From a virus: DNA of 40,245 nt. Positions within the stretch are counted from its first letter, which is position 1. Each line of letters begins with the position of its first letter. The stretch is from positions 1 through 40,245 of the IMG/VR virus record IMGVR_UViG_3300005912_000001. One strand, 5' to 3'. The translations under genes and the position numbers were made by a program. Shown in pieces: positions 412 through 40,245 of the stretch. The notes under the pieces are model-generated. The model was not told where the DNA came from. It saw only the letters and a list, made by a program, of their open reading frames with translations, and did not search any database.

Positions 412-1027
412 ATCGGACAGTTCGGACGATACGGGCGGGAGCGCGGGATCGAAGATCGAGGCGGCAAACGTCGCGAACTTGCTCGCCATGCTGAAGTCAG
501 GCAAGTCGCTCTCCCGCGCTCAGCTCACCCAAATCGATGACTACAACGAAAAGAAGTCAGCAGTCGGACGCGTTGCCGACAACCTTCCGGCCGCCGCCGC
601 TATGTCGGGGATCGATCTCGATACAATCGGGAAATCGAAAGCCGCCGGTTGTCCCGCGTTCCGAGGGTCTCGGATCTACGTTGATGAGCTGATCGAATGG
701 GTAGACGATCACGGTGACACCCTGCCGTCTGGGAGTAGCGAGATCGATCTAATCAACATCGAGATTGCCAAGGAAAGACATCGAAAATGGAAGATCGAGA
801 ATGACGCGAAAGAGGGTCTCACGATCAACCGGCAAGATGTCGCGACTCAGATCCTAGCCCTCGGACTGGAGCTGAAACGCATATTGCGCTACAAGCTCGA
901 AGATGACGCACCTAGGCGGCAACGCCAGAAAACCGAGGCTGAGCTTCGGATCGTGAATCGAAAGCTAGTAGACGAGATCTGCTCAATCATGGAGAAAGGA
1001 TCCGAGACTTGGAAACCGAAGCCATAG
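398..1027 (+). CDS. Terminase small subunit (gpNu1-like)
   Basis: This 209-residue protein sits directly before the large terminase gene and overlaps it by 19 bases, the classic TerS position. Its N-terminus is Ser/Asp/Gly-rich. The middle (about residues 50-110) contains G-S-R-I-Y-V-D-E-L-I-E-W-V, like the winged-helix start of Nu1-type proteins. The segment after it (about 120-205) is charged and helical, beginning I-E-I-A-K-E-R-H-R-K-W-K, fitting the oligomerisation part. It would bind the packaging site and load the large subunit. An ATG at 359 is also in frame, but 398 gives the shorter overlap with the PLD-like gene. No good Shine-Dalgarno sequence precedes it. Confidence 0.8.
   Translation: MARSKSDSSDDTGGSAGSKIEAANVANLLAMLKSGKSLSRAQLTQIDDYNEKKSAVGRVADNLPAAAAMSGIDLDTIGKSKAAGCPAFRGSRIYVDELIEWVDDHGDTLPSGSSEIDLINIEIAKERHRKWKIENDAKEGLTINRQDVATQILALGLELKRILRYKLEDDAPRRQRQKTEAELRIVNRKLVDEICSIMEKGSETWKPKP
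412..429 (+). repeat. Paired 9-bp repeat (TCGGACGGT type), terS copy
   Basis: ATCGGACAG is followed directly by TTCGGACGA. This is the most degenerate member of the family of tandem 9-mers seen at 28571, 36442, 38901, 38966 and 39046. It lies five codons into the small terminase gene. It could be a protein binding site related to replication or packaging, or a chance resemblance. Confidence 0.4.
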
Positions 1028-2937
1028 CAACCGCATGGAGGCAGAGCTGGAGGAGACCGGATAGACGTGAGATTCATGAATGGGCGCGCGTGAAGTTGAA
1101 CCTTCAAGGCGATTATCGAGATCGCGGACCGTTCAATGTGGAAACATCCCGCTATCTGATCCTCCCGTTCCAACTCCTCAAAAACGACAAGGTCCGGATG
1201 GTGAATCTCCTCAAAGCGATCCAAACAGGAGGATCGTTGATCGGTGATCTGTTCTTTCATTGGTCACTTTCGGAGAGTCCCGCGCCCTTCATGGCATCGT
1301 TCCAAACAGACGATGACGCAGAGCAACACTATCTCACTCGGATCGAGCCGACGCTGAGGGCGACGAAGTGCAATCTCCCATTCTACAAGCGACTCAAGAA
1401 GAAGCGGGATCTCTACCAATTCCCGAACATGAACGCATATTTCCAGGGCTCGAATATGAGTAGTCTCCAACGGAAATCGGTCCAGCACGAGATGAACGAT
1501 GAAGTCTGGGACTGGAATCCGGGGATGCTCGCTGAGGCCTGGGGGCGAACGGAAGCCTTTCCGGATACCTGCAAGATCCTGAACATCTCGCAGGGAGGAG
1601 ACGAGGGAACCGACTGGGATGAAGTCTACTCACGCGGACGCCGATACGAATGGGGGATGAAGTGCTTCAAGTGCGGCTTTCACCAACCGCTCGCGTTTGC
1701 TAGTCAAATGATCGCCAACGAAGACGAGCGCGCCGGAGTCGTTTTCGACAAGATCCAGCAATCAGACGGGCGATTCGATATCGCGCGATGCGCTGAGACA
1801 GCCCGGTTCCGTTGTCGGAAGTGCGGTCACGATCACGATGACGAGCCGAAAACATGGGATCGGATCAATCACACGGGCGACTACATTTGCATTGATCCAG
1901 ATCGTTCCATGACGAACTGCTCCATCCATTGGGAACAGCTCGTCAATGGACGATATGGGAGGCTAGTCACTGAGTTCCTGACCGCGCTCGAAATCAAGGA
2001 ACAGGGATCCGTTGAAGCGTTGCGGAAATTCCAAATGAAGAAACGCGCGCTCATGTGGTCAATGAGTCAGGCCGTGGATAAGATCGAGATCGTCACCGCT
2101 GGATACCTCAAAGAGCCAGCGAGCGGAAAGGATTACAAAGCGCCGGCGGGTTTGCTTTCGGAATTCGCGCAAACCTTCATCACCGCCGATTTCCAAGAGG
2201 GACGCGGAAACGACTCCCGTCATTTCAAGATCGTAGTCCGAGGATGGCGCGACGATGGAACCTCCCGATTGATCTGGGAGGGGCGACTCAACTCAGTTGA
2301 GCATATCCACCAACTCCAGAGAAACCTCCGGCTCCGTCCGCGTTGCGTCTGTCTTGATGGAGGTCACGAACGGAATCAAATCGCGTCATGGTGCGCTCAA
2401 TACGGATGGACTGTTTTGATCGGAGACGATCCCGCGACGTTCCCGCACAAGTCGAAAAAGAAAGGAGAGAAGCCGATTCAACGCCCCTACTCCCCGCGAT
2501 TCCGGATCGATCCCCAGCGCGGAAGATCCGGCGCGAATCGGACATTCGCATTCGCTTTCTATTGGTCTAATCCATCGATCAAGACCGTCACCTGGAACCT
2601 ACGTCACGGAAAACCCGAGCGCTGGGAGCTCCCAGACGATCTCTCCAAGGAATACAAACACGAGATCGACTCAGAGGTTCGCAAACGAGAGATCGTCAAG
2701 AAATCGGGCGCGCCCCGATACATCTGGTATCAATTCAAAAAGGACAATCACGCGTGGGACTGCGAATGTATGCAAACGACGTGTGCGATCATGGCCGCGA
2801 TTGTGCCGTTTGACGTGGAACCCGAGTCCGAAGAACCGGACGAATCGGACCGCGATTCGGCGCAAGCGCCGAAAGGGAAAAGGGGTGAAAAAGCACCCCA
2901 TGAACAGGACAAACAACTCACTTTGCTCGAAACCTGA
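1009..2937 (+). CDS. Terminase large subunit (lambda gpA family)
   Basis: This 642-residue protein is the packaging ATPase/nuclease. An atypical Walker A, K-A-I-Q-T-G-G-S, lies at residues 69-76, and a Walker B-like N-D-E-V-W-D-W follows near 163-169. Cysteine pairs at C219/C222 and C269/C272 form a zinc ribbon of the kind found in gpA-type terminases. The C-terminal RNase H-like nuclease shows its acidic residues in T-A-D-F-Q (D394), C-L-D-G-G (D450) and H-A-W-D-C-E. The start is TTG, with AGAAAGGA ending eight bases upstream; no ATG is available in that frame nearby. A gpA-type enzyme suggests cos cutting, but no cos site was recognised. Confidence 0.93.
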   Translation: METEAIATAWRQSWRRPDRREIHEWARVKLNLQGDYRDRGPFNVETSRYLILPFQLLKNDKVRMVNLLKAIQTGGSLIGDLFFHWSLSESPAPFMASFQTDDDAEQHYLTRIEPTLRATKCNLPFYKRLKKKRDLYQFPNMNAYFQGSNMSSLQRKSVQHEMNDEVWDWNPGMLAEAWGRTEAFPDTCKILNISQGGDEGTDWDEVYSRGRRYEWGMKCFKCGFHQPLAFASQMIANEDERAGVVFDKIQQSDGRFDIARCAETARFRCRKCGHDHDDEPKTWDRINHTGDYICIDPDRSMTNCSIHWEQLVNGRYGRLVTEFLTALEIKEQGSVEALRKFQMKKRALMWSMSQAVDKIEIVTAGYLKEPASGKDYKAPAGLLSEFAQTFITADFQEGRGNDSRHFKIVVRGWRDDGTSRLIWEGRLNSVEHIHQLQRNLRLRPRCVCLDGGHERNQIASWCAQYGWTVLIGDDPATFPHKSKKKGEKPIQRPYSPRFRIDPQRGRSGANRTFAFAFYWSNPSIKTVTWNLRHGKPERWELPDDLSKEYKHEIDSEVRKREIVKKSGAPRYIWYQFKKDNHAWDCECMQTTCAIMAAIVPFDVEPESEEPDESDRDSAQAPKGKRGEKAPHEQDKQLTLLET

Positions 2938-2953
2938 AACCTAACCGCAGACC

Positions 2954-3331
2954 ATGAACCAAACCGAAACAACACTCCCCCAGCTTCCCGCCTACACTTA
3001 CCGCGCCCACGTCGTTTCCGTCTACGACGGGGACACGTTCACCATAAATATCGATCTCGGACTTGGAATCTCCATGAACGGGCAAAAGATTCGACTCTTC
3101 GGATTTAACACGCCAGAGGTTCGAGGAGTCGAACGACCGGAGGGTATCCCCGTGAGAGACTACGTCCGGAAGATGATTGAAGGGCGAGACGTGATCCTGA
3201 GAACCCATCGAGACAAGAAAGGGAAATATGGACGTTGGCTCGGAGAGGTGTTCTTTCAACTTGGAGAGGACATGCACGATCTCGGAACATTGCTCGAATC
3301 ACAGGGGTTTGCTCAGCGCGTGGACTACTAA
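2954..3331 (+). CDS. Staphylococcal nuclease-like (SNase/TNase fold) protein
   Basis: This 125-residue protein matches the thermonuclease fold. V-Y-D-G-D-T-F lies near residues 23-29, R-L-F-G-F-N-T-P-E-V-R-G near 47-58 supplies the first catalytic Arg and Glu, and K-G-K-Y-G-R-W-L-G-E-V supplies the second catalytic Arg. All key residues of the Ca-dependent nuclease appear present. The protein has no signal peptide, so it would act in the cytoplasm. It lies 16 bases after the large terminase gene and may process DNA at packaging or degrade host DNA. No Shine-Dalgarno sequence is visible before its ATG. Confidence 0.85.
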   Translation: MNQTETTLPQLPAYTYRAHVVSVYDGDTFTINIDLGLGISMNGQKIRLFGFNTPEVRGVERPEGIPVRDYVRKMIEGRDVILRTHRDKKGKYGRWLGEVFFQLGEDMHDLGTLLESQGFAQRVDY

Positions 3332-3341
3332 ACCGATCACG

Positions 3342-3515
3342 ATGAACACAGAAGAATACAGAATACGATTCGTGGCCCAGATAACCTCCCGAGGAATTGG
3401 GCCTGAAACCGCAAGCGACGAACACGCAGCATGGATCGAAATGGACCCAGAAGCCCCGAAGGGCGGAGCCCCAGAACTCGACGCAGATGAGGCACTGAGC
3501 TATTACGCCGATTGA
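3342..3515 (+). CDS. Small acidic protein of unknown function, 57 aa
   Basis: The start at 3342 is ten bases after the nuclease gene stop. The product is short and acidic, with a segment M-N-T-E-E-Y-R-I-R-F and a proline/glycine-rich middle. No family is recognised. It is the last gene before a pair of palindromes and the start of the head gene block, so it closes the terminase-nuclease transcription unit. Its tight spacing and complete frame favour a real gene, but the evidence is positional. Confidence 0.5.
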   Translation: MNTEEYRIRFVAQITSRGIGPETASDEHAAWIEMDPEAPKGGAPELDADEALSYYAD

Positions 3516-3528
3516 GTCCCTTACTGAA

Positions 3529-3544
3529 TGTTTCCCGGGAAACA
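3529..3544. promoter_or_regulatory. parS/Noc-site-like palindrome 1 (TGTTTCCCGGGAAACA)
   Basis: This 16-bp sequence is a perfect palindrome inside a 26-bp perfect palindrome (3524-3549). It matches the bacterial parS consensus TGTTTCACGTGAAACA at 14 of 16 positions. Its core TTTCCCGGGAAA equals the core of the Bacillus Noc binding site. The phage encodes a ParB-family protein at 33182, the likely ligand. Without a following U-run it is a poor intrinsic terminator. Confidence 0.7.
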
Positions 3545-3554
3545 TTCAGGGAGC

Positions 3555-3570
3555 TGTTCCGCGCGGAACA
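3555..3570. promoter_or_regulatory. parS-like palindrome 2 (TGTTCCGCGCGGAACA)
   Basis: This perfect 16-bp palindrome lies within a 20-bp one (3553-3572), 26 bp centre to centre from palindrome 1. The identical 16-mer recurs at 5649 and 29919 in unrelated coding contexts. It has the same T-G-T-T-N-C arms and central C-G as parS. It ends eight bases before the putative late promoter motif at 3579. Confidence 0.75.
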
Positions 3571-3578
3571 GCCCCAGC

Positions 3579-3600
3579 CGTTGATAGCGCGCCCTTTTGT
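3579..3600 (+). promoter_or_regulatory. Putative late promoter/activator motif, copy A
   Basis: CGTTGATAGC, then six bases, then TTTTGT. The same CGTTGATAGC-N6-TTTGT arrangement recurs at 6513 and 23401, each time at the head of a late gene block. Here the next start codon begins two bases after the motif. It does not fit a sigma-70 promoter well, so a phage-directed promoter or activator site is inferred. Confidence 0.55.
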
Positions 3601-3602
3601 GA

Positions 3603-3950
3603 ATGGCAGCGTCTTGGCATCTAATAAAAGCGTTCATCAGGGAAGCCACTGAGGACGAAGACCTAAACCCGGTTGCGGAGATCTCTACCGCATACGCGAA
3701 ACTGCGCGCGATTCAGCGGGGGCACTTCGAAACCGCGACGATAAACAATGACGGTCTTCAGCAGATCTCTTCACAGGTCAAGGATGTCTCCTTTTCGTTC
3801 GCCGTCCCCTCTGGACTGGGTGCAGCCGAGATCATCGCCACGGCAGAGCAGGCGCTCGAAATGATCGAAGGGAAAACCGTCGCCCAAGCGCGCGCCTTTC
3901 TGGTTCGGCGCAAACGGACGCAACTCGATATGCGGACCTATCGACTATGA
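3603..3950 (+). CDS. Small head protein in the gpW position
   Basis: This 115-residue protein lies between terminase/nuclease and portal, where lambda has gpW (head-tail joining). Its C-terminal half, with I-I-A-T-A-E-Q-A-L and A-R-A-F-L-V-R-R-K-R-T-Q-L, could fit a joiner, but lambda gpW is only 68 residues and the similarity is not strong enough to assign the family by eye. The ATG follows a putative late promoter motif by two bases, and the stop overlaps the portal start (ATGA). There is no Shine-Dalgarno sequence. Confidence 0.6.
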   Translation: MAASWHLIKAFIREATEDEDLNPVAEISTAYAKLRAIQRGHFETATINNDGLQQISSQVKDVSFSFAVPSGLGAAEIIATAEQALEMIEGKTVAQARAFLVRRKRTQLDMRTYRL

Positions 3951-5470
3951 AAGCCCCTACCCTTTTTGACGGACGGGGGAGACCCATCTCCTCGCGCAAG
4001 TCGGCAACCTACGCGCCCGGAGGATATCTCGGAGCCAGCAACCACCGCAGCCGCTCCTATTTGCCGGGGATGATTGCCGACTCGCGTTCGGATTACACCG
4101 CCGGAACACGTCGCGAGCTCCAGCGCCGCGCGGGATTCTTCAAGAAGAACGTCGGAATGGTTCGCGGAGTCGCCAAGAGCCTTGTTGATCATGCCGTTGG
4201 ACCCGGAATCTACCCGCTCGCAGCGACATCAGAGGACGAATGGAATCGCGCCGCCTGGTCGTGGTTCTGGGAAACCGCCAAGATCGGAGATGTATCCGGG
4301 AGGATGACGCTTTGGGAAGCTCAACAGGAACGGGTAAAAGCGAAGTTCTGGGCCGGTGAAATGTTCACCGCCAACTCAAAGAGCCGCGCAGGTTGGCCTC
4401 AATTCCAACTCATCCGCGCGCATAACTGCGGCTCGTTTGGGGTTGATGAATCCGAAGGCTGGAGAGACGGGGTGAAGCTCGACGACGCAAACCGCGCTCG
4501 AGCTTACCGATTCCGCCTGAAGGGGGACGAGCGCTATCAAACGCTCAACGCGAATCAAGTCGTCCATTCCTACATGCTGGAAGAATCGGACGGAATCCGA
4601 GGCGTTCCGCCGCTCGCGTCTGGATTCAATAATCTTCACGACATTCTCGACACGCTCTCACTCGAAAAGGAGAGCATGAAAGACAACGCCCGAGTCGCCC
4701 GATGGACGCAGACCGAATCCGGCGAAGACGAGGAGGAGCCGTCCTATTTTGAAGACGGAAGCACCTCCTCTGAGGACGCTATTGCCTACAAGCTCGATCA
4801 AGTATTTGGGGCTGAAATTCTACGTCTCAAAAAAGGCGAGTCCGTCAATTCATGGTCTTCCGCGCGCCCCTCCCCTGCGTTCATGGGGTTGATCGCCTAC
4901 CTCGGAAAAGAAGTCACGAACGCGACGGGATTCCCCTACGAGTTTGCCTGGGATCCGAACGAGCTCAAAGGACCATCAGTCCGCTTCATTCTTGAGAAAG
5001 TTCGTCTTGCCGTTGGAGAGTGGAAACGGAACGAGATTGAGGACACCTATCCGTTTTACACGTTTGCGATCTCTTGCGCCATGGAGAGCGGAGATCTCCC
5101 CTACCATCCGGAATGGTATAAAGTCGAATGGATCGGCGGCGCTCCAGATGTCACTATAGATAAAGGCCGCGACGGGGGGCAAGACCGCGAAAACATCAAA
5201 GCAGCGCTTACCACGTTCAAGCGTTACTACGCCGCTCAGGGGCTATGGTGGAAAGACGAGCTCGAACAGAAAGCGCGCGAGGCGGGCTACATCGATTTCC
5301 TTGCTGAGAAATACGGAGTCAACGCAGACCGGATTCACTTGCTCATGATCAATCAGGCTCAGGAAGACAAAGAGGAGCCAGGGAAGCGCGCCGATGATCT
5401 CGATCGCAAAGAGCGCGAAGAAGAAAACGAGCAAGACAGCAAGCGCGACCGATCCTCAACCTCCGCCTAG
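3947..5470 (+). CDS. Portal protein (lambda gpB type)
   Basis: This 507-residue protein has the length and layout of lambda-type portals, the dodecameric ring through which DNA enters the head. Recognisable features are the N-terminal R-R-E-L-Q-R-R-A-G-F-F-K-K-N followed by A-V-G-P-G-I-Y-P, a conserved middle segment V-V-H-S-Y-M-L-E-E-S-D-G-I-R-G-V-P, and a highly charged Glu/Lys/Asp-rich C-terminus from about residue 470. The gene overlaps the preceding one by four bases (ATGA) and is followed by the head protease, as in lambda. It has no Shine-Dalgarno sequence and is probably translated by coupling. Confidence 0.92.
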   Translation: MKAPTLFDGRGRPISSRKSATYAPGGYLGASNHRSRSYLPGMIADSRSDYTAGTRRELQRRAGFFKKNVGMVRGVAKSLVDHAVGPGIYPLAATSEDEWNRAAWSWFWETAKIGDVSGRMTLWEAQQERVKAKFWAGEMFTANSKSRAGWPQFQLIRAHNCGSFGVDESEGWRDGVKLDDANRARAYRFRLKGDERYQTLNANQVVHSYMLEESDGIRGVPPLASGFNNLHDILDTLSLEKESMKDNARVARWTQTESGEDEEEPSYFEDGSTSSEDAIAYKLDQVFGAEILRLKKGESVNSWSSARPSPAFMGLIAYLGKEVTNATGFPYEFAWDPNELKGPSVRFILEKVRLAVGEWKRNEIEDTYPFYTFAISCAMESGDLPYHPEWYKVEWIGGAPDVTIDKGRDGGQDRENIKAALTTFKRYYAAQGLWWKDELEQKAREAGYIDFLAEKYGVNADRIHLLMINQAQEDKEEPGKRADDLDRKEREEENEQDSKRDRSSTSA

Positions 5471-5497: not shown

Positions 5498-6502
5498 ATG
5501 TCCTATCCTCGAATCGTAGACGCAATTTTCAACTCCCCATGGGCGATCCATCGTCCGTTCTTCGGGACCATGTTTCCGCTGATGCAATCGCGAATCTTCA
5601 GCGACTCCGCGCAACTGGAATCCTTCACCGCAAACGGAGCCGGACCCATGTTCCGCGCGGAACAGTCCGCCGCATCAGGGAAAGGCAAGGGAGGAAACTT
5701 CAGCGCGAGCCGAATCACCAAGCGCACGGATGGTCGATTGATCGACCAAAGCGCGCGGATTCACTCGGAAGCGCTCCAGCGTTGCGGAGGCGATGCCGGA
5801 ACATATCACACAATCGTCCGAGAGGAGGAAGCCGCGCTCCCCCCCGGTCAGATCTTGCACGTCTTCGGCTCCGGAGTCCTAGGAAAGCACCTCTCCTCCA
5901 TGGATGAAATGTGCGCAGGAGGGCTTTCGGTTGATCGTATTCAGTCCGCGATCACAGCAGCAGAAGAAGACGACAAGGTTTCCGGAGTGATGCTTCATCT
6001 CGATACTCCGGGCGGGATTTGTTACGGAATGCCGGAGACGTTCGCGATGGTCAAAAAGCTCCGCGAAACGAAAACCGTTGCCGCGTTCTGCGATTCACTC
6101 ACCGCGTCGGCCGGTCAATGGTGTATCGCCGCAAGCGATGTCGTTTACGTCACGCCATCCGCTGATCTTGGATCTATCGGAGTCTACTCCGCTTTCACCG
6201 ATTACACCGAATGGTGCAAGAAAAACGGGATCACCGTTGAGGTGATCGCAGACGGAGTTCACAAGGGCGCAGGCTACCCAGGAACCGCACTCACTGAGGA
6301 GCAACGCACGAAGATCAAAGCGGATGTTTTGGAGTGCAGTCGTCAGTTCAAAGACGACATCCGCTCAGCGCGTGAAGGGATCACAGACGAGACGATGCAA
6401 GGTCAATGTTTCACCGGGAAATCAGCCGTTGAAGCGAAGCTAGCCGACGCCGTCGTGATCAATCTCAACGAAGCGCTCGCAGACTTAGCGAAAGCGATTT
6501 GA
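5498..6502 (+). CDS. Head maturation protease, S49 family (lambda gpC-like)
   Basis: This 334-residue serine protease of the SppA/S49 clan would cleave scaffold and portal during prohead maturation. The catalytic Ser lies in S-L-T-A-S-A-G-Q-W and the general-base Lys in A-D-G-V-H-K-G-A-G. Oligomerisation motifs D-T-P-G-G and A-D-L-G-S-I-G-V are present. It stops near the normal end of the protease domain, so unlike lambda gpC it lacks an internal C-terminal scaffold; the following gene probably supplies that. A perfect parS-like palindrome lies inside the gene at 5649. No Shine-Dalgarno sequence precedes the ATG. Confidence 0.92.
   Translation: MSYPRIVDAIFNSPWAIHRPFFGTMFPLMQSRIFSDSAQLESFTANGAGPMFRAEQSAASGKGKGGNFSASRITKRTDGRLIDQSARIHSEALQRCGGDAGTYHTIVREEEAALPPGQILHVFGSGVLGKHLSSMDEMCAGGLSVDRIQSAITAAEEDDKVSGVMLHLDTPGGICYGMPETFAMVKKLRETKTVAAFCDSLTASAGQWCIAASDVVYVTPSADLGSIGVYSAFTDYTEWCKKNGITVEVIADGVHKGAGYPGTALTEEQRTKIKADVLECSRQFKDDIRSAREGITDETMQGQCFTGKSAVEAKLADAVVINLNEALADLAKAI
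5649..5664. promoter_or_regulatory. parS-like palindrome 3 (TGTTCCGCGCGGAACA), inside protease gene
   Basis: The 16-mer is identical to those at 3555 and 29919. Here it encodes M-F-R-A-E-Q, whereas at 29919 it is read in another frame, so conservation acts on DNA rather than protein. ParB sites inside coding sequence are common in bacteria. Confidence 0.7.
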
Positions 6503-8560: not shown

Positions 8561-9112
8561 ATGAAAGTCGCAACCATCATCGCTCTATTTCCCTCTGGCT
8601 GGAAAACCCTCTTCACGGGGTCGGATATCTCTGAGGCGAAAGAAGGATTCAAACTCGCCAAGGTGCGAGGATCACTGACCAGCAGCGACGGGGAGTCAGC
8701 TAGTGAAATCTACTATTTCGACACCTCCGGACGCCGGATGCGTAAGCGCCTATCCAGTCCCGAGGAGCTCGAAAAACTCAACACCGCCAACGGCAAACAA
8801 GCCAAGGCCGAAGCCGACCGCGCCACCAAAGCGCAAAAAGCCAAGGACAAGAACGCAGTCGATGCCAAAGCGAAAGCCATCGCAGGGAAAGCCGTTGCCG
8901 CCATCGCGAAAGACATCGTCAACGATGCCAACGAAGGCGACTCCGCCCCTGACTCCGACTCCGATTCCGATCCTGAGCCCGAAGCCGAGACGACCGATCC
9001 CGAGGACGAATCCAACCACTTTGGAACCCCTGAATCCGACAAGGTCGCGCAATCCGCCAAAGCGAAGCGCGCCGGGGGCAAAAAGACAAATTCCGAGCCT
9101 GAAGCAAAGTAA
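8561..9112 (+). CDS. Low-complexity structural-region protein, unknown function
   Basis: This 183-residue protein has an ordered first third (about 1-65, with F-P-S-G-W-K-T-L-F and E-I-Y-Y-F-D-T-S-G-R) followed by an Ala/Lys/Glu helical stretch (about 70-125) and an acidic Ser-Asp-Pro-rich tail containing repeated S-D dipeptides. It lies between head and head-tail joining genes. The head might use it as a minor component. The long antisense and +1 frames here come from the biased composition and are not genes. Confidence 0.55.
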   Translation: MKVATIIALFPSGWKTLFTGSDISEAKEGFKLAKVRGSLTSSDGESASEIYYFDTSGRRMRKRLSSPEELEKLNTANGKQAKAEADRATKAQKAKDKNAVDAKAKAIAGKAVAAIAKDIVNDANEGDSAPDSDSDSDPEPEAETTDPEDESNHFGTPESDKVAQSAKAKRAGGKKTNSEPEAK

Positions 9113-15017: not shown

Positions 15018-17384
15018 ATGCCCGAAGCTACCGCAAAACTGAACGTCCTGATCTCGCTAAAAAGCGCGATCAAGGACAACCCTCAGGCGCTCAAATGGCT
15101 CCGCAACGTCACCGCAGGACTAGGAGCCGCCGCTGGAGCCTACGCAGTCCTTGCCGCGAAACAATCGCTCCAACTCGGAGCCGATCTCAAGAACCTCGCG
15201 CAATCCGCCGATCTCTCGACCGACGCCTTCCAAGTCCTCACCCTCAACGGTGAACGCTGGAACGTCAAAATCGCCCAGATCGCAAAAGCCGCTCAGACCC
15301 TCCGGAAGAATCTCCAAGAGGCGCGCGTCAACGGAACCTCTCCCCTCAACAACGATCTCAAAGCCCTCAACCTTACCGCAGCCGGACTCCAAGCCCTCGC
15401 CCCGGAGCGTCAATGGGAAGTGATCGGACGCGGGATCGCCAACGCCAGCGACAAGCAAGCCGCCCTCAACGCAGCGACCAAACTATTCGGAGAAGAAGAC
15501 GGACCCCGCCTCCTCGGAATGCTGGAAGCCCTCGGAACGGAAGGATACGACAAACTAGCCAAAGGCGTTGAAAGTATCGTCCTCGATCAAAGCCAGATCG
15601 ACGATCTCGCTCAGGCTGAAGCCATCCTCTCCGGGATCGTGGATAAGATGACATGGCTCGCAGCACACGGGACCGTTGGTCTCTCCCGCGCGATGACCTC
15701 CCTCACCCCCGAACAGTCCGGAGTTGAAGGCGCGAGCAAGGAAGCCGCCGCCATCCGCGCGCGAATCATCGCAGCCGGAAACAACGCCGAACGACTCGCC
15801 ACGATTCAAGAAAGCATCACCAAACGCCGCGCAGATCTCGAGGCCGATATTCTCGATATCTATCGCGTCAACATGGAGAGCAACGCTCCCCTATCCGCCA
15901 GCGATCAGCGCGCCGATACCTACGCGAAAGCCCTCCTTCAAGATCTCAAGAAAATTGAGGATCATCTCAGCTCCACGACCATTGATCGAGATCTGAAAAC
16001 GCAAGTTGATGAAGCCGCGAAACGTCAGGAGCAAATGTCCGAAGCCAACGCGCAAGCCATCGCCGAAGACAACGCCACCGCGCAAGCCCTCGAAGCGAAA
16101 ACAGCCGCCGAACTTGCCGCGCGCGATGCCGCCGCCCTGCACTCGAAACGCGTCAGCGAGGGAGCCGCGATCACCGCCCAAGCTCGCACTCCCCTAGAAG
16201 CCTACGCAGACGAAGTCTTTCGTCTCAGCGCCCTCCAGAAAGACGGGATCATTTCCGGGGAAACCTACCTCCGCGCGATCGCCCAAGCCCAAGGTCAACT
16301 CTCCAGCAAGACCACCATTCCAGCCGCTCAGCTCAGCCTCAATCGCGAGCTCCTAGAGATCACCACGAAACGCGCCGCGATCGATTCCGACTTTACCTCA
16401 ACCGCCGCCGAAAAATGGAGTCAGCGCAAGCAACTCCTAGAGGCTGAGGTATCCGTCCAAGAGCGCTACATCGCCAACCTTCGAAAGATGCAAGAGGGCG
16501 CAGATCCCCAGTCAGCAGCAACCTATGAATCACTCATTCAGGGATCGATTGGACAGATCGGATCCCTCCAAGATCAAAGCGCCGGACTCGGAGCCGATCC
16601 CGATGATTGGTCCGATCAGATGCAGTCCCAGTTGACCGCGCTTCGCGATAGCTGGGGAACCACCTCCCAACAAATCGCCGGGATGATCACGGGCACCATC
16701 GGAGGCGCAGTCGATACCCTCGGAGATAACATCACCGCTTCCATCTTCAAGAGCCAGACCCTCGGAGAAGCCTGGAACAATATCCAGCTCGCGATAGGAC
16801 AAGAGGCCGTCTCAGCAATCGTCAAATTCGGGCTCCGCTGGGTAGCGACCAAGCTCATGATGGCTGGCACCGATGCCGCCCTAGCTGCCACGCAAACCGC
16901 GACTCTCATCCCACTAGCCGCCGCTCAATCAGCGATTTGGGCCGGACCCGCAACCCTCGCCACGATTGCCAGTTTCGGAGGAGCCGCCGTCGCAGCCCCC
17001 GCGCATATCGCCGCCTCGATGATGCTCACCCAAGGACTCGCAGCCATCCCAGGTCACGAAGACGGAGGCCACGTCAGAGGCGGCAAACAACTCAGTTGGC
17101 TCAACGAATCCGGAGAGGAATACGTCTTCAGCGCGCCAGCCGTTGCCGCCCTCGGAGTCGATACCCTGGAGACCCTCCATCGATCCGCCAAAGAACCCAC
17201 CTCAGGCAGTTCCAGCGCCGGGGGCTCAGGATCGAGCTCCGGTCCCGCGCGCCAAGCCCCCCCCAACGTTGCGATCTTCGGGGAAAATATGCGCGCCGCT
17301 AAAGACTGGGCTCAATCCCAAGAAGGAGAAACCTGGTTCCTCGATTCCATGGCTCAGCACATGTCCAAATTTATAAACGCCTGA
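15018..17384 (+). CDS. Tail tape measure protein
   Basis: This 788-residue protein sets tail length. It is mostly helical with strong coiled-coil character (about 60-420) and has a hydrophobic segment near residues 33-50 (G-L-G-A-A-A-G-A-Y-A-V-L-A-A). A second long hydrophobic region at about 610-680 fits membrane insertion during DNA ejection. The C-terminal motif E-D-G-G-H-V-R-G-G ... E-S-G-E-E-Y-V-F is a common tape-measure ending. Its moderate length predicts a tail somewhat over 100 nm by the usual 1.5 Angstrom per residue rule. The next gene overlaps its stop by one base (TGATG). Confidence 0.92.
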   Translation: MPEATAKLNVLISLKSAIKDNPQALKWLRNVTAGLGAAAGAYAVLAAKQSLQLGADLKNLAQSADLSTDAFQVLTLNGERWNVKIAQIAKAAQTLRKNLQEARVNGTSPLNNDLKALNLTAAGLQALAPERQWEVIGRGIANASDKQAALNAATKLFGEEDGPRLLGMLEALGTEGYDKLAKGVESIVLDQSQIDDLAQAEAILSGIVDKMTWLAAHGTVGLSRAMTSLTPEQSGVEGASKEAAAIRARIIAAGNNAERLATIQESITKRRADLEADILDIYRVNMESNAPLSASDQRADTYAKALLQDLKKIEDHLSSTTIDRDLKTQVDEAAKRQEQMSEANAQAIAEDNATAQALEAKTAAELAARDAAALHSKRVSEGAAITAQARTPLEAYADEVFRLSALQKDGIISGETYLRAIAQAQGQLSSKTTIPAAQLSLNRELLEITTKRAAIDSDFTSTAAEKWSQRKQLLEAEVSVQERYIANLRKMQEGADPQSAATYESLIQGSIGQIGSLQDQSAGLGADPDDWSDQMQSQLTALRDSWGTTSQQIAGMITGTIGGAVDTLGDNITASIFKSQTLGEAWNNIQLAIGQEAVSAIVKFGLRWVATKLMMAGTDAALAATQTATLIPLAAAQSAIWAGPATLATIASFGGAAVAAPAHIAASMMLTQGLAAIPGHEDGGHVRGGKQLSWLNESGEEYVFSAPAVAALGVDTLETLHRSAKEPTSGSSSAGGSGSSSGPARQAPPNVAIFGENMRAAKDWAQSQEGETWFLDSMAQHMSKFINA

Positions 17385-19177
17385 TGTCATTCGCTATCGT
17401 AGATCACGACGGGACAGACTTCGCCGTCCTCCTCCTTGAACCAAATCGCCGCGACAACGGATCACTCGATATCGTTTACTCCTTCGGGACGACGATCACC
17501 GTAGGAGATTCCGGGCGTGAAACGCGCGAGCCAGATCAGCCAGATCTCCGCCTCCGTCAATCCTGTGCATACACCCTCACCAAAGCCGAATCGCACACCC
17601 TACGCACGCGCCTAGCTGCCCTCTCGACCACGCCGATTGCCGTCCCCCTCTGGATAGACCAACTCACAGGAGCGAACTGGGGAAACCGCCTCCACGATTG
17701 CGAACTCATCGCGCGCCTATCCGATGGAGCGATCCTCGCGAGTGATGCCGAGTTGAGTGATACCGAGACCTACGTCCCCCTCTTGATCGGTCGCCTCATC
17801 GAAAAGCAACCCGAAGCCTCCCCCCTCGCTGAAGAGTCGGGATCCGAAACAGATTTCACCATCGTTGAGGATTCCGAGTGGGGCTATCGGCTCACCATCA
17901 AAGGAGCCGCCGTCGCGGGAACTTGGCCCACAAGCCTAGTCCCAGAGACGACCTCCAACCTCAAAGACTTCTCCGAAACCGGACTCGTATTCGAAAAAAT
18001 AGGACGCAGACGCAAACACACGATCGAGCATCAAGAAACCGCGTTCAAGTGGGGCCAAAGCGCCTCCTTTGTGCTGGGTTCCCGTGCCGAGATCGCCCTA
18101 TTCCTTCAGACCTTCGAAGCTCACGCCGGACGCCTCCGCTCGTTCTCCATGCCGTGGTGGTTTCGCCCCGGAGCCGATGCGCCAACGACGCCGCACGAAA
18201 CGATTGTGCGCTTCGGTTCCGATCAGATCCGCGTCGAATACGTCACGGCCGTCACCGCTCGAATCACCCTCACATTTTGGCAACTCCCGTGGGAGATCAC
18301 CCCCATCGAAGGAGAGACCCCCGTTCAACCCGGGCGATTCTTCCTCTACCGTCACACCCTCCAGACGCCAACGACTCCCATCATCTGGAGATACACCGAC
18401 TATCCCGCGCCCATCACCGTTGAAGAAGACGCCGAAGACGTGACCTACTTCCCAGCCGATATCGAACACGATAAAATCACGCAAGGATACCAGCTCGATG
18501 ACGATCCCGTGACTCTCAAGAGCTTCGTTGCCGATAGTCACCCCTGGATGCTCGCCCTCAAGCGCATGTTAGAAGCCCCCCTTCAGCTCGATATCTTCGA
18601 AGTCGATCCCGAGAATCCCGTTCCCGTGCTCAAACACACCGGGGAGCTCGACGCCCCCACCGGAAAAGGCCGCAAGCTCGCGATGAAATCCACCGCGCTC
18701 TCCGGAGCCCTCGATATCAAAGTCCCCAACTTCTACGTTCAAGAATCATGCAATCACGAATGGTGTTCCATCGGATGCGGGAAAGATATCGAAGATTACA
18801 CATTCACCGCGACGATTGACGTAATCGACGGGCGCGAAATCACCGTCACGATCACCGTGAATCCCCCCGCCTCAGCGATGGGAGCCGATTACTTTGCCAA
18901 CGGAGATTGTAGCATAGGAGCCGGAAGCACCTTCGAAGGACGCGAAATCATCCGATCCGAAAACCTCGGATCCGGTCAGCAAAAACTCACCATCGATCAC
19001 GCCCTCCGCGCGCCCTCCATCGATCAAGAAGTATCCATTCGCCCCGCCTGCCAAGGCACATGGGCCGAATGCTCCGCCTTCGCCAATACCATCAACTACG
19101 GAGGACACCGTCACGTCGGAGCCGATAATATTAGCGTTCCCGCCCGTGAAACCAACGCGCAAGGGGGCAAGAAATGA
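17384..19177 (+). CDS. Distal tail/hub protein (gpL/DUF2163-like, probable Fe-S)
   Basis: This 597-residue protein lies between tape measure and NlpC/P60 gene, the place of lambda gpL and gene transfer agent hub proteins. Its C-terminal domain (about 370-597) carries cysteines in E-S-C-N-H-E-W-C-S-I-G-C-G-K-D and A-C-Q-G-T-W-A-E-C, followed by N-T-I-N-Y-G-G-H-R-H-V-G. Those match the C-terminal signature of the DUF2163 hub family, and related gpL proteins bind a 4Fe-4S cluster. The N-terminal 370 residues form an additional beta-rich part that could be a fused distal tail protein. It overlaps the next gene by four bases (ATGA). Confidence 0.78.
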   Translation: MSFAIVDHDGTDFAVLLLEPNRRDNGSLDIVYSFGTTITVGDSGRETREPDQPDLRLRQSCAYTLTKAESHTLRTRLAALSTTPIAVPLWIDQLTGANWGNRLHDCELIARLSDGAILASDAELSDTETYVPLLIGRLIEKQPEASPLAEESGSETDFTIVEDSEWGYRLTIKGAAVAGTWPTSLVPETTSNLKDFSETGLVFEKIGRRRKHTIEHQETAFKWGQSASFVLGSRAEIALFLQTFEAHAGRLRSFSMPWWFRPGADAPTTPHETIVRFGSDQIRVEYVTAVTARITLTFWQLPWEITPIEGETPVQPGRFFLYRHTLQTPTTPIIWRYTDYPAPITVEEDAEDVTYFPADIEHDKITQGYQLDDDPVTLKSFVADSHPWMLALKRMLEAPLQLDIFEVDPENPVPVLKHTGELDAPTGKGRKLAMKSTALSGALDIKVPNFYVQESCNHEWCSIGCGKDIEDYTFTATIDVIDGREITVTITVNPPASAMGADYFANGDCSIGAGSTFEGREIIRSENLGSGQQKLTIDHALRAPSIDQEVSIRPACQGTWAECSAFANTINYGGHRHVGADNISVPARETNAQGGKK

Positions 19178-25858: not shown

Positions 25859-27160
25859 TTAGTTCGTCGGAGGACCGCTTGACGGTGAACAGGTGAGCGC
25901 AACCGAATGGTTGCCGACTGACCAAATGCTATCGGGGGACGGAAATCGATGTGCCCCCCCCCTAGGCTTCAGTCCCGTCCCTCTCCGAGACGCTTTCCGG
26001 GGCTCCGAGTAGTGTAACGTCAAGCCATCGAGCGCGAGTGCGTCAGCCAAGGGAACGGGCCGAATGTAGCTCTGAAATAGGACGCGTTCACTGTTTCCCA
26101 TGTCTTGCTCCAGTGCCTTGGTGTCCTTTGTCATAACGTATCGATGAGACGCGTAAGAGTGCCGGAGAAGATCCTTCTCCCAATCGTCAAACACCCCCGC
26201 ATCTTTACGAATCCGATCAAACTTCCGTTTCGAGAAATAGTTTGGAGCGAGCTTCTCAGATTTGCACCAAGTCAGAATCCTCCAGAGCGGACCATGAATC
26301 GACGCATTGCGCCGCCGTCGTCCTCCCTTGGCTTTGTTGACCTCGATCAAAAGATGTTCCGGTTCAAGGTAGAAATCAGACCACCCATCGAGCCGGGGGG
26401 CCTCTCCCGGACGCACCCCTGAGAGCGCACAAATCGACAAAAACGGGAGCATTTCCGGACCCTCCGCATCGGTAAGCGCCATCTGAAGGAGTCTCCATAT
26501 CCGATCGAACGAAAGAACCCCAGGAATTCGAGCGCGATGAACCGGGCGATCGAGATCCGTCACGGGATTCTCGAAAAGTAGTCGCCTTCGAGGGTTCGAA
26601 AGGAACGCGCAAAAAAGCTTCATTAGGTCGAATCGATCGCGCTGACTTCGATCCATGCGATCGGAATCATAGATCCAGCTCGAAACTTGGAGAACCGAGA
26701 TCTCATCCGTCCGAGACACTCCGGAAACGCGCGCGAAATGAGTCAGCACAATTCGCCGACAATTGATCGTCACCTCCACACATTTCCGTTGATCACTTAG
26801 CCAACTACAAAAAAGCTCAATCCCGTCCTTGATTGAGACACCCTGAACAGGCTTGAAATGCCGAAGGTAGAATTCAGCCGCGCGGGAATGAGTTACCCCA
26901 GCCGGGAGGACATCGCGAGCGCGCTCCGCGTCCCGAAGTTGTCCCTCAGGGAGGGTAGTCAATCGAGGTTGGAGATCTCCCGGATTGGCTACTGTCCGGA
27001 GTTGTTCCGCTGCGAAAATCTCAGCCTCATCCCTAGATCTGAAGTTATTTCGGATCCGTTTGCCCTCGATCGAGCCCTTGACGCGAAAAGAAATCGAGCC
27101 AGAGCGATTCTTGAACGGGGTAATTTCCAGAGGTCGAGCGGTTGCCAAAACGGTTGCCAA
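25859..27160 (-). CDS. int: Tyrosine recombinase / integrase
   Basis: This 433-residue protein catalyses integration and excision at attP. The N-terminal 90 residues fit arm binding (R-S-G-S-I-S-F-R-V), a core-binding domain follows, and the catalytic domain shows S-G-V-R-P-G-E (box I Arg), N-K-A-K-G-G-R (Lys), D-L-L-R-H-S-Y-A-S (box II Arg, with Asp in place of the first His), M-G-N-S (Asn where His is usual) and the nucleophile in F-Q-S-Y-I-R-P-V. The substituted box II resembles a group common in Verrucomicrobiota, from memory. The presumed start is TTG and overlaps repeated arm-like sites; a second in-frame TTG lies 12 bases inside. About 60 residues follow the active Tyr, longer than usual. 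Confidence 0.9.
   Translation of the reverse strand: MATVLATARPLEITPFKNRSGSISFRVKGSIEGKRIRNNFRSRDEAEIFAAEQLRTVANPGDLQPRLTTLPEGQLRDAERARDVLPAGVTHSRAAEFYLRHFKPVQGVSIKDGIELFCSWLSDQRKCVEVTINCRRIVLTHFARVSGVSRTDEISVLQVSSWIYDSDRMDRSQRDRFDLMKLFCAFLSNPRRRLLFENPVTDLDRPVHRARIPGVLSFDRIWRLLQMALTDAEGPEMLPFLSICALSGVRPGEAPRLDGWSDFYLEPEHLLIEVNKAKGGRRRRNASIHGPLWRILTWCKSEKLAPNYFSKRKFDRIRKDAGVFDDWEKDLLRHSYASHRYVMTKDTKALEQDMGNSERVLFQSYIRPVPLADALALDGLTLHYSEPRKASRRGTGLKPRGGAHRFPSPDSIWSVGNHSVALTCSPSSGPPTN
27137..27160. repeat. Probable integrase arm sites (AGCGGTTGCCA), P arm
   Basis: AGCGGTTGCCAA at 27137 and CGGTTGCCAA at 27151 are direct repeats 13-14 bp apart that overlap the integrase start codon. AGCGGTTGCCA recurs exactly 200 bp away on the other side of attP. 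Next to it, AGTTGACTA (27162) and AGCTGACTA (27172) form a second pair of direct repeats. Placement on both sides of the core is typical of arm-type integrase sites. Confidence 0.55.
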
Positions 27161-27904: not shown

Positions 27905-28411
27905 TCATGCTGGGTGATCGGTGCTTTGGGGGCTGAGGTTGTATTCTGCTAATTCTTCAGCCGCTTGCATGTTCCCAAAGTGCCCATCCTCTAGCTGGGA
28001 GGCGTCGATTTTGCCAGTGATCCAGCTGATTGTTGAGCCTAGGTCTGGATCCCCTGCGTTGATTTGATCTGCGATGGAGCGAAATTTCGCGCGAAGGTCG
28101 TCTGATACGTCGTCGAGTGGGACTTTGTCGCCTTGATCGCCTACGAATCGGATCTCTAGGAGCTCTAGGGGGAAGCCGCTCCGTTCTGCTACATCGTAGA
28201 GATGCGCGCTAAGGATGGTGTATTGATGCTCTGGGTCCGGACTGGAGCGAGTCACGAGCTTTTCGAGGTTTGCGGGACTGAGTCCGACTTGTCCGAGGAG
28301 GATTTTTGAGAGCGCGGATTTGATGATCCCGACGCGTTGCGCGAAATCGGAAACGTTGGTCGTTCCGTTGGCTCTCATCACGGCTCGGACTGCGCTTTCT
28401 AGTCTGTTCAT
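27905..28411 (-). CDS. Lysogeny repressor (XRE-like helix-turn-helix)
   Basis: This 168-residue protein is transcribed away from the early operon across a symmetric operator, the layout of a lambda-type immunity region. The N-terminal 60 residues contain a helix-turn-helix (V-S-D-F-A-Q-R-V-G-I-I-K-S-A-L-S-K-I-L). The C-terminal part is acidic and helical and lacks the Ala-Gly/Ser/Lys features of LexA-type self-cleaving repressors, so induction may work by another route. Its ATG lies seven bases after a -10 element (TACTAT at 28424-28419 on the - strand), so the mRNA appears leaderless. Confidence 0.75.
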   Translation of the reverse strand: MNRLESAVRAVMRANGTTNVSDFAQRVGIIKSALSKILLGQVGLSPANLEKLVTRSSPDPEHQYTILSAHLYDVAERSGFPLELLEIRFVGDQGDKVPLDDVSDDLRAKFRSIADQINAGDPDLGSTISWITGKIDASQLEDGHFGNMQAAEELAEYNLSPQSTDHPA

Positions 28412-29165: not shown

Positions 29166-29614
29166 ACGCCGTTGCTCCAGTTTTGAAGATCCGGACGGTT
29201 CTCCGGGAACGGACCCTTGCTCCGATTAGTTTTCGGCTTCAGGGGGCTATCCGGATAGATGATGACTTGATGCTCGGATGGGCCGAGGAGGAGGTCACCG
29301 CGCGAAAGGACATCATGAGACTGACCGCGCGAGCGGACGCGGAATTTGCTGAGCTGAAGGCGCAAGCGGTCGAGATGGTTAATCAGGGTGCGGAGATCTC
29401 GAATCTCAACGCGTTGCTGTTTTTCACGAAGATCGAGAGCGCGCGGGGGCTCGTGAGACAAGCTCACGCGCTCGCTACGCTTTGTTGCTTGGTATTGATC
29501 CTTGCGGGGTCGCTTTCCCTTGGTTTGGGGAGTTCTGATCAGACGGCGCGCAGAGCTAAGGCTCTGTGCGTTCGTCGATTGGTTCGCACTCGGAAAAACG
29601 GGGATTGGATCTGA
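29162..29614 (+). CDS. Early membrane-associated protein of unknown function
   Basis: This 150-residue protein has a charged helical N-terminal two thirds and one hydrophobic segment near residues 103-122 (A-T-L-C-C-L-V-L-I-L-A-G-S-L-S-L), followed by a basic tail. Such topology would place the N-terminal part in the cytoplasm or the periplasm; it cannot be decided here. The start was chosen at the ATGA overlap with GGAGGAGG just upstream, rather than at the longer 29117 start. A superinfection-exclusion role is possible but unsupported. Confidence 0.55.
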   Translation: MNAVAPVLKIRTVLRERTLAPISFRLQGAIRIDDDLMLGWAEEEVTARKDIMRLTARADAEFAELKAQAVEMVNQGAEISNLNALLFFTKIESARGLVRQAHALATLCCLVLILAGSLSLGLGSSDQTARRAKALCVRRLVRTRKNGDWI

Positions 29615-29615
29615 T

Positions 29616-29951
29616 ATGAGCCGCCCCGCTGAATGGATCTCATTTGCTGAGTTGGAGGCGCGCTCGCCTTGGACAAGCGCGAGCACGCTCAGACGCATGA
29701 TCAAGGGGAAGCGGATTTCGTATCGCCAGACGCGCAAGGGGGCTCCGATGTCGTTTAATTGGATCACGGTCGAGGCTGAGTTGCGCAACCTGGACACGGT
29801 GAGCCGGGTGCGTGAGATCGCGCCGTTCGCATACGATCAGGGAGATGTTGCACGAATTGAGGCGAAGCTGGACGCGATTCTTCAAGCGCTCGTTCACAAT
29901 GTCGGGATTCCTGCGGATTGTTCCGCGCGGAACATGAGGAGGACGGGTTGA
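29616..29951 (+). CDS. Excisionase/helix-turn-helix-like protein
   Basis: This 111-residue protein starts with I-S-F-A-E-L-E-A-R-S-P-W-T-S-A-S-T-L-R-R-M-I-K-G, like the helix-turn-helix of MerR/Xis-type DNA-binding proteins, followed by a wing-like strand (M-S-F-N-W-I-T-V). A coiled-coil helix (D-V-A-R-I-E-A-K-L-D-A-I-L-Q-A) closes it. It could be the excisionase or an early regulator. The 3' end contains a perfect parS-like palindrome (29919) and the Shine-Dalgarno sequence of the next gene. Confidence 0.5.
   Translation: MSRPAEWISFAELEARSPWTSASTLRRMIKGKRISYRQTRKGAPMSFNWITVEAELRNLDTVSRVREIAPFAYDQGDVARIEAKLDAILQALVHNVGIPADCSARNMRRTG
29919..29934. promoter_or_regulatory. parS-like palindrome 4 (TGTTCCGCGCGGAACA), early operon
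   Basis: The 16-mer is identical to those at 3555 and 5649, here read as D-C-S-A-R-N-M in the gene around it. It is the only copy in the early region and lies about 3.3 kb before the ParB-family gene in the same operon, so ParB could autoregulate its operon from here. Confidence 0.7.
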
Positions 29952-30773: not shown

Positions 30774-31192
30774 CTGAATTTATTTTTACGCTGAAATTCG
30801 GGATCCTTGTGGTCTTGATCATGGGGATAGCGATCCCGTTTGTGATTGCTGATGTATTAAGGAGTTGGGCGCTAGGGGCTCCGAAGCGGGAGGGCTTCGC
30901 GTCATGGATGGGATGCGAGCAACGGGGGCGCGTGATGGAGAACGGACAACCCTACGTGCCGGAGAGTTTGGTGTGTGCGAGCTGGGATCATGAGATCGGA
31001 ACGATGCTCAGGGTCACGAATCGAGAGAATGGGCTGAGCGTCCTTGCGCGGGTTTCTGATCGTGGTCCCGATAAAGCGCTCTATCGCGCTGGTCGGGTGA
31101 TCGAGTTGAGCGAGCGCGCCTTTGATGTGATCGCAGATCCGAGGGTTGGAGTTGTTGCCGTGTCGATCGCAGTCAAGGGGGACTCGTATTGA
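30770..31192 (+). CDS. Membrane-anchored RlpA-like (double-psi beta-barrel) protein
   Basis: This 140-residue protein has an N-terminal membrane segment (F-G-I-L-V-V-L-I-M-G-I-A-I-P-F-V-I-A) and a domain matching RlpA: A-S-W-M-G, then I-G-T-M-L-R-V-T-N, then V-S-D-R-G-P, then I-E-L-S-E-R-A-F. RlpA enzymes cut denuded glycan strands. The catalytic Asp of D-R-G-P is present, but the usual Ala-Ala-His is replaced by C-A-S-W, so activity is doubtful. It sits in the early operon, not the lysis block, which is odd for a wall protein. It overlaps both neighbours. Confidence 0.72.
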   Translation: MTEFIFTLKFGILVVLIMGIAIPFVIADVLRSWALGAPKREGFASWMGCEQRGRVMENGQPYVPESLVCASWDHEIGTMLRVTNRENGLSVLARVSDRGPDKALYRAGRVIELSERAFDVIADPRVGVVAVSIAVKGDSY

Positions 31193-36350: not shown

Positions 36351-36426
36351 AAAAATTTGACTACTCCATCTAGTAGCTATTCCGCCTCGCAACCACAACC
36401 TGTTGTGCCCTCCCCTCTTTTTGCCC

Positions 36427-39785: not shown

Positions 39786-40245
39786 CAAAACCAGAAAACG
39801 CGCGCGAAACCTCCGACGAATTCGACGGACTACCGACTCCAGACCTCACGGGATTTCAAGATCCGGACTTTGATGACATTCACGGACTCGATTTTGAGGC
39901 AGTCGTCAATGGACTCGATAAAACTGAGGAGGAAGTGACTCCGATCGGGAAGCCGCGCAAACTGAAAGCCGGAGAAGCGACCGGACTCGGAGGGCGAGCC
40001 GTCTCGATGACGCGACGAACGAAGCGAAAAATCTTCTATGATCTCGCGACTTCGAAACGCGCGGTCAGTGCGATTGGAAAACTTCCGGATCCCGAGGAAT
40101 CTTTTCATTGCCTGATGGGTGGAGACTATCACGGATTCGATCTCGTGATTGCGATCCACTCGCTAGCGGAAGCGCCGATTGATTTCCTTCACCTGACGAC
40201 GCTCGGATTCAATCGCCACAACATGACGCACCTGATCGGGATGCT
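39782..40245 (+). CDS. PLD-like protein, 5' part (continues at position 1)
   Basis: This is the N-terminal part of the 254-residue protein that continues as 1-411 after the circular join; bases 40136-40245 duplicate 1-110. The first 60 residues are acidic, with G-L-P-T-P-D-L-T-G-F. A basic stretch R-R-T-K-R-K-I-F follows near residue 78. The start overlaps the preceding small gene (ATGA), so it ends the early/replication chain and leads into terminase. Confidence 0.75.
   Translation, partial: MTKPENARETSDEFDGLPTPDLTGFQDPDFDDIHGLDFEAVVNGLDKTEEEVTPIGKPRKLKAGEATGLGGRAVSMTRRTKRKIFYDLATSKRAVSAIGKLPDPEESFHCLMGGDYHGFDLVIAIHSLAEAPIDFLHLTTLGFNRHNMTHLIGM
40136..40245. repeat. Terminal direct repeat, right copy
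   Basis: This segment is identical to bases 1-110 and marks the contig as circular or circularly permuted. The non-redundant length is 40,135 bp. Confidence 0.95.

Follow-up and report, generated by a model that had tools for sequence, protein, structure and literature searches.

Why would an integrating phage carry a ParB-type protein and parS-like palindromes with no ParA detected? The question is raised by a virus record in IMG/VR, 40,245 bases long (hereafter the window, the whole stretch of DNA that was analysed), whose bases 1–110 are identical to bases 40136–40245 and whose end-to-start junction is spanned by another record (L016), so the genome is probably complete. A first-pass annotation had reported two perfect 16-bp palindromes at 3529–3570, their starts 26 bp apart, between the terminase and head genes; both are there, each the core of a longer perfect palindrome, in a gap (3516–3602) flanked by a small open-reading frame after the terminase gene (3228–3515) and a gene before the portal gene (3603–3950). 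The pair is real but belongs to a genome-wide set, exact copies of the second palindrome at 5649 and 29919 having been overlooked. The sites and the structural genes among which they lie are as follows:

1009–2937, plus strand: terminase large subunit, GpA type
3524–3549, no strand: site A, a 26-bp perfect palindrome with core TGTTTCCCGGGAAACA at 3529–3544
3553–3572, no strand: site B1, a 20-bp perfect palindrome with core TGTTCCGCGCGGAACA at 3555–3570
3947–5470, plus strand: portal protein, lambda family
5498–6502, plus strand: S49-family peptidase, which harbours site B2
5649–5664, no strand: site B2, an exact TGTTCCGCGCGGAACA copy within the S49-peptidase gene
29919–29934, no strand: site B3, an exact TGTTCCGCGCGGAACA copy close to the end of the open-reading frame 29502–29951

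An order-2 Markov model predicts 2.7e-5 exact copies of TGTTCCGCGCGGAACA in the window, which has three (3555, 5649 and 29919), and the frame TGTTN8AACA occurs only at the four sites A, B1, B2 and B3, all four perfect palindromes, where the shuffled window is expected to hold 0.2 such frames and 0.005 perfect ones. A generic palindrome-family test gave merely p=3e-3, owing to its pseudocount and to there being just two further copies, and synonymous-codon shuffling retained 1.4 of the 2 intragenic sites. Sites A and B1 each agree with TGTTYCACGTGRAACA, which we take to be the parS consensus, except in the base immediately on either side of the central CG; the parS likeness that had been ascribed to the first palindrome is therefore genuine but equally a property of the second. 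The CCCGGG core of site A is presumably also that of the Noc binding site (NBS). The likeness of the cores, in the central CG and in CCCGGG, to parS and Noc sites stands, but the residues with which the protein would contact DNA (below) indicate a site that is neither. The presumed binding protein is encoded in the right-hand part of the window, among these genes:

25859–27160, minus strand: tyrosine integrase-like gene (phrog_1, 1e-11)
27905–28411, minus strand: candidate repressor without a family match, its HTH guessed by eye, facing away from the operon on the ParB side
31189–32826, plus strand: C5 cytosine DNA methyltransferase, upstream of ParB
33182–35533, plus strand: ParB-type protein of 783 aa, with an N-terminal extension, ParB_N, HTH_ParB and a long C-terminal part
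33950–34267, plus strand: ParB_N/CTPase fold (aa 257–362), with GERRWRA and ENLQRE
34274–34558, plus strand: HTH_ParB domain (aa 365–459), with the recognition segment VGKNRSTVAK at 34358–34387
36403–38514, plus strand: P4-family primase/helicase, co-directional with ParB and downstream of it

Pfam, NCBIfam and comparison with PDB sequences and folds all place the open-reading frame 33182–35533 in the ParB family. Its N-terminal CTPase domain scores 64.1 bits against PF02195 (cut-off 26.3) and 115.5 against TIGR00180 (cut-off 58.45), its HTH 68.3 bits against PF17762 (cut-off 22.6), and its closest PHROG is phrog_3264, 'ParB-like partition protein'. The ParB with G-E-R-R and E-N-L-Q-R motifs that the annotation had recognised is thus borne out, by GERRWRA and IENLQRE and by both domains scoring over cut-off; these carry the GERRxR and ENxQR phosphate-motif residues of CTP-dependent ParB clamps, and it is quite likely that the window ParB is such a clamp. 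A 23-row structure model is confident for the core only (mostly pLDDT about 90), the best PDB fold matches of which are CTP/CDP-bound ParB and Noc, followed by KorB. In the account of Jalal et al. (PMC7383237), as far as its sections on specificity go, residue 173 reads base 1, R for the G of parS and Q for the A of NBS. The equivalent residue in the window ParB is R397, the parS-type arginine, and the window sites have G at base 1; position 201 is S (G in the parS type, R in Noc), and base 6 of the sites is C or G, not A. At the positions of Noc's NBS-specific residues Q173, K179/K184 and R201 the window ParB has R, F, Q and S. The contact residues would suit a diverged site, a matter of consistency and not of proof, since four of the six contacts that the same sections give as conserved across ParB and Noc (PMC7383237) are also altered in our alignment (Q162T, S172N, N178K and R204H).

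If palindromes and ParB belong together, relatives should tell. A ParB-domain alignment scan of viral contigs, of which the best 80 of at least 513 confirmed matches were kept, yielded a sister phage, G001 (IMGVR_UViG_2508501067_000002), whose ParB domain is 64% identical to that of the window in its best segment (among those best 80); aligned over their full length the two ParBs are 42% identical, and 12 further homologous protein pairs, including terminase, portal, S49, primase and integrase, share 33–65% identity. G001 has no match to TGTTNCNCGNGNAACA and lacks the window 16-mers, and a search without a preset motif returned as its top palindrome family TGTTYGCCGGCGAACA, with eight members, four exact and four with up to 3 mismatches (p=5e-12). 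All 8 of its intragenic sites compare with 1.5 left after synonymous shuffling, and one falls within its parB. Two lie at counterparts of window sites: an exact site (15048) immediately precedes the gene 3603 homologue and, like sites A and B1, has a GCCGTTGATAGC common to both phages downstream of it; another falls early in the S49 gene, where alignment puts it 18 codons upstream of B2. Related phages that keep ParB but lack the palindromes had been put forward as evidence against the pairing; G001 is such a phage as regards the 16-mers themselves, yet it has an eight-site set of its own with two members in corresponding places. Its other sites have no window counterpart at the two homologous genes examined (primase, 17384–19177).

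Scanning viral contigs by DNA alone with TGTTYGCCGGCRAACA (30 stretches) recovered G001 and also a third phage, in the form of two fragments (L360 and L367, in 99.96% agreement across 4,439 bases); its portal and S49 proteins are 61–62% identical to the window's. The fragments do not reach as far as a ParB gene, and this phage is seen by its sites and structural genes only: one site in L367 (705) precedes the same gene as B1, and its S49 site occupies the same codons as in G001. Exact-codon orthology of the window site at 5649 with the G001 S49 site was rejected, the two being 18 codons apart where G001 and L367 share codons. On these comparisons the position of a site is kept while its sequence changes, as expected of a site that follows its protein, and across the phages site and ParB HTH appear to change together. 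Directly by the conserved site before the gene 3603 homologue, the third phage also carries (L360:3834–5297) a 31%-identical homologue of the window C5 methyltransferase (31189–32826).

For the window's own site type, the reverse search, from motif to protein, finds HTH_ParB in only 1 of 18 records with a window or G001 16-mer (L004, 11 of the 13 loci of one 16-mer search and 6 of the 30 of the TGTTYGCCGGCRAACA search), the one being a near-identical relative of the window (G152); most of the other 16-mer-bearing records look like chance matches, and some are short. No close relatives were found in named bacterial genomes, the one distant ParB-domain match (37%, L311) being in a Paceibacterota MAG. 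A 155-kb GC-rich contig without HTH_ParB (L012, IMGVR_UViG_2818991472_000001) has palindromes of 24 bp (8933–8956) and 26 bp (8979–9004), both with the TGTTCCGCGCGGAACA core. They sit in a gap next to genes that look structural by eye, the two cores 47 bp apart, and to judge from the AAAA/TTTT flanks may be operators or a bidirectional terminator pair.

A second and larger site family came from VarioGold and Aval, cultured phages with ParB and integrase and without an annotated ParA. The palindrome GTGCANACGTNTGCAC (GTGCA type) ranks first among palindrome families in 17 of 25 genomes, both of these included. In a ParB-chosen set, running therefore from ParB to site (it draws on 20 of 30 records from one search, taken whole or to 39,950 bases), 20 of the 21 GTGCA-type records, which include the two source phages of the motif, have at least 3 sites with up to 2 mismatches, 123 in total, where shuffling gave means of 0–0.35 per genome (about 0.2 expected). 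With a palindrome filter added, G006 keeps 1 site and G027 none, and three records speak against the pairing, G002 with a very similar HTH and just 1 GTGCA site, and G135 and G141 with 2. Among 37 further records, also ParB-chosen (34 of the 49 loci L055–L103 on contigs of at least 30 kb, plus L105, L313 and L314), 25 have two or more GTGCA sites and 12 have none, with 135 sites by our sums against 19 for the reversed pattern, and in 11 of the 12 site-free records, those aligned, ParB has a different recognition segment. A symmetrised matrix of 122 sites is strongly conserved save at position 6. Of the 20 records with at least 3 sites, 18 have one within parB; a site lies 12–34 bp after the capsid gene in 6 of the 15 records in which that gene is recognisable, whilst 108 of the 123 sites fall inside open-reading frames as called, about the coding fraction. 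Coding explains part of the sites here as in the window, since synonymous shuffling spares about 9 (8.8) of the 19 in-parB sites and 36 of the 109 intragenic ones. Even spacing as a sign of coating was weak and was set aside, the sites in most genomes being not clearly more even than random. In VarioGold the site after the capsid gene (L018:5752–5775) has a T-run behind it, TTTCTTTTTT, and might serve as a transcription terminator too.

Starting from the motif gave the same association for this family. A GTGCANACGTNTGCAC scan of viral contigs returned at least 120 stretches; among the 80 loci listed were 46 distinct contigs of at least 30 kb, and 37 of these 46 encode HTH_ParB over cut-off (30 of 39 once the 7 contigs already in the ParB list are dropped). 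A scrambled palindrome of the same composition matched 45 stretches in the whole collection, one site each, with HTH_ParB over cut-off in 1 of 45 and at E≤1e-3 in 3 of 45 (1 and 2 of the 10 stretches of at least 30 kb). Against that 1 of 10, Fisher tests give 5e-5 for 37/46 and 2e-4 for 30/39. Nine of the 46 motif-bearing contigs among the loci listed are without HTH_ParB. In five control genomes from the scrambled-palindrome scan (G096, G105, G111, G114 and G115) no palindrome family reaches p<0.01.

Not every ParB phage yielded a family. Plain parS or Noc sites were rejected for VarioGold, Aval, Maja and Bbif-1, in which nothing comes within 3 mismatches of parS or NBS; Maja and Serratia phage Eta have no palindrome family, and the top family of Bbif-1 (p=1e-8) was discounted as looking like low-complexity coding. 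Among the 12 ParB records free of GTGCA sites, families with p<1e-3 were also discounted, as low-complexity in G137, as clustered repeats in G147, as GC-rich in G127 and, in G151, as CGGCGATCGCCG, which is presumably HIP1-like. In G131 the ParB lies beyond the 39,950 bases taken, in which there is none. The record G119 (L315/L316), one of the same 12, holds four copies of TATCACGCGCGTGATA-like palindromes (p=1e-5) and a ParB with a different recognition segment, possibly a third site family.

Whether any of this amounts to a segregation system depends on its partners. No match to PF13614 (AAA_31, ParA-type), the sole motor family covered, was found in the 46 ParB records, the window included and VarioGold and Aval outside the set; VarioGold has a 98-aa gene annotated as an AAA+-type ATPase near parB. 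The ParA-binding motif [LFI]G[KR]G[LFI], in the form given in PMC12704722, is absent from all 36 ParBs searched, the window's included, and a PF00589 integrase is present in 37 of the 46 records. In the window the tyrosine integrase that marks an integrating temperate phage is recognised through phrog_1 (1e-11), with weak XerC/D matches below cut-off and none to PF00589 at 1e-3; its G001 homologue (51% identical) does match PF00589. The 16-bp palindromes would be cognate by comparison, in a parS-like frame that is not parS itself, and on this evidence the window has a ParB–parS-like pair by anatomy that is not ParABS by membership. Gene order is the basis for timing: parB is on the same strand as the primase gene, upstream of it, and diverges from the candidate repressor, an arrangement that points to lytic expression, and the ParB–primase co-direction suggests a lytic-phase operon in the window. 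In VarioGold and Aval, where the repressor gene precedes ParB and both are on one strand, ParB may be expressed in lysogeny.

The sequences themselves show the site set, how it is conserved and diverges along with ParB, and the lack of a detected ParA, and from these we infer binding, clamping, timing and purpose. That the phage ParB and the palindromes belong together is very likely. We lean, on balance, towards the palindromes being loading sites, genome-wide and probably in lytic growth, of the phage's own ParA-independent ParB-type clamp. A ParB dimer would bind each 16-bp palindrome through its HTH, close as a CTP clamp, which we propose because its CTP-pocket motifs are conserved, and then slide off to cover the adjoining phage DNA. 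It would probably be made in early lytic growth, and with dispersed sites every replicating phage genome would be covered. The complex is probably no segregation machine, since ParA was undetected and ParB is without the ParA-binding motif, and a role other than segregation is likely. The likeliest purpose would be to mark or organise phage DNA in replication and head filling (telling self from host, compaction, or steering modification or packaging); any such specific marking or coating purpose is put forward tentatively.

The competing accounts share much of this evidence. ParB might be a KorB-like regulator: loaded at dispersed sites, it would slide along the DNA and silence phage promoters or switch them from early to late, perhaps aided by a partner that locks the clamp. 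For KorB, the sections of PMC11790492 dealing with its operators give a 16-bp site, distances to promoters of 4–10 bp or 45 to >1000 bp, and sliding over as much as 1.5 kb. KorB structures match the ParB model, a site follows the capsid gene at 12–34 bp in 6 of 15 records and sites A and B1 are upstream of the portal gene, but no promoter preference is visible, since 108 of the 123 GTGCA sites are in open-reading frames, about the coding fraction; we regard this role as possible though unlikely. Partition in trans, in which ParB on the phage sites would work with a host ParA (or host ParB/SMC) so that an extrachromosomal prophage or replicating phage DNA is inherited, would also explain the site–ParB pairing, and the Eta authors proposed host factors for their ParB (PMC3918226, in its passage on that gene). 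The motif missing in 36 of 36 ParBs, the integrase in 37 of 46 records and the ParB–primase gene order in the window and G001 make it improbable.

It is also unlikely that another phage or host protein (a repressor or a host LexA/LacI-type regulator) binds the palindromes and that the ParB link reflects shared phage ancestry. Two records with similar palindromes and no detected ParB fit that account: the GC-poor phage record G041 (IMGVR_UViG_3300021495_000012) has six GTGCAAACGTTTGCAC-like copies and no ParB by HTH_ParB, phrog_3264 or a custom HMM, and G040 has four related sites, its ParB likewise not detected. The G041 sites resemble what we take to be a PurR/LacI-type operator, and the record may be a fragment or may use a LacI/PurR-like protein. 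A tape-measure family in 19 of 21 records and a primase family in 18 also favour it, but ParB is the only family in 21 of 21 (20 by clustering, G009 by HMM), though in a ParB-chosen set; no other of the 12 most widespread families reaches that count. Of the 46 motif-first contigs among the loci listed, 37 have HTH_ParB, and the site sequence varies with ParB HTH type. RNA hairpins or terminators in gaps, plus chance, are barely credible: the T-run after the VarioGold capsid-gene site would fit, but none is seen 3' of the window palindromes in the sequence around the sites, on which ground terminators were rejected there, exact copies stand in coding genes (5649, 29919), and dispersed copies recur across dozens of records.

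A ParA-independent clamp of this kind would resemble several known systems in part. With chromosomal ParB–parS it shares ParB_N and HTH_ParB, GERR and ENLQR, 16-bp palindromes with a central CG, several dispersed sites and the R173-equivalent arginine, whereas it is phage-borne, has neither ParA nor ParA-binding motif detected and has long N- and C-terminal extensions; the phage site core is CCGG or GCGC (or GTGCANACGTNTGCAC), where that of parS TGTTYCACGTGRAACA is, as we take it, ACGT. Noc with its NBS is likewise a ParA-less ParB paralogue with dispersed 16-bp sites, and the Noc model gives the best NCBIfam E-value for the window ParB, yet at 144.7 bits, far under the cut-off of 315; the base-1 reader is R, not Q, and no Noc-like N-terminal membrane helix is apparent by eye. 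KorB–OB of plasmid RK2 is a ParB-family CTP clamp with 16-bp sites on a mobile element, and KorB regulates genes too, but the phage KorB domain (PF08535) falls under cut-off (20.9 against 22.3 bits) and the phage sites are mostly in genes. P1, N15 and the mycobacterial plasmid-prophages encode a ParB with cognate sites, but are extrachromosomal and have their own ParA.

Among phage ParBs, the ParB–Tls loci and ParB–methyltransferase fusions (PMC6536676) also place ParB between modification genes and terminase, and that paper cites the idea that phage ParB steers DNA modification at packaging; the passages on these loci name no ParB binding sites, whereas in the window candidate sites go together with a ParB whose HTH is complete. 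The survey of the ParB-CTPase fold in PMC12704722 has, in the parts relevant here, orphan ParBs common on prophages, mostly without the ParA motif, and CTP binding for some phage proteins, for which those parts name no DNA sites, and the Eta paper (PMC3918226), in its passage on the gene, gives ParB without evidence of ParA or ParS. The VarioGold paper mentions the ParB domain, and a term search of it finds neither palindrom- nor parS nor inverted repeat. A matched ParB and site set on a phage with an integrase-like gene and no ParA detected, which by the first-pass annotation would be a new use of ParB, is well supported by comparison between phages, but orphan ParBs in prophages are not in themselves new (PMC12704722; PMC3918226, in the same sections). 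Among the top entries of the open-licence literature on phage ParB with sites or CTP, no description of phage ParB site sets was found.

Earlier accounts, as far as those sections of PMC12704722 and the Eta paper go, gave orphan prophage ParBs no sites and no job. Sequence now defines two site families, and since dozens of phage records, that of the cultured VarioGold among them, carry one of the two, experiments can directly address binding, CTP dependence and purpose. The paired ParB helices and sites that occur in nature also extend the work on ParB and Noc specificity. Integrating phages may widely deploy a ParA-free lytic DNA-coating clamp at private, dispersed 16-bp sites, marking self DNA for replication, modification, protection or packaging, with recognition helix and site co-diverging so that each lineage would coat only its own DNA, a generalisation that we hold to be conceivable but short of probable. 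The ParA-free clamp, if true, would be a further use of the ParB CTP switch beyond segregation and nucleoid occlusion.
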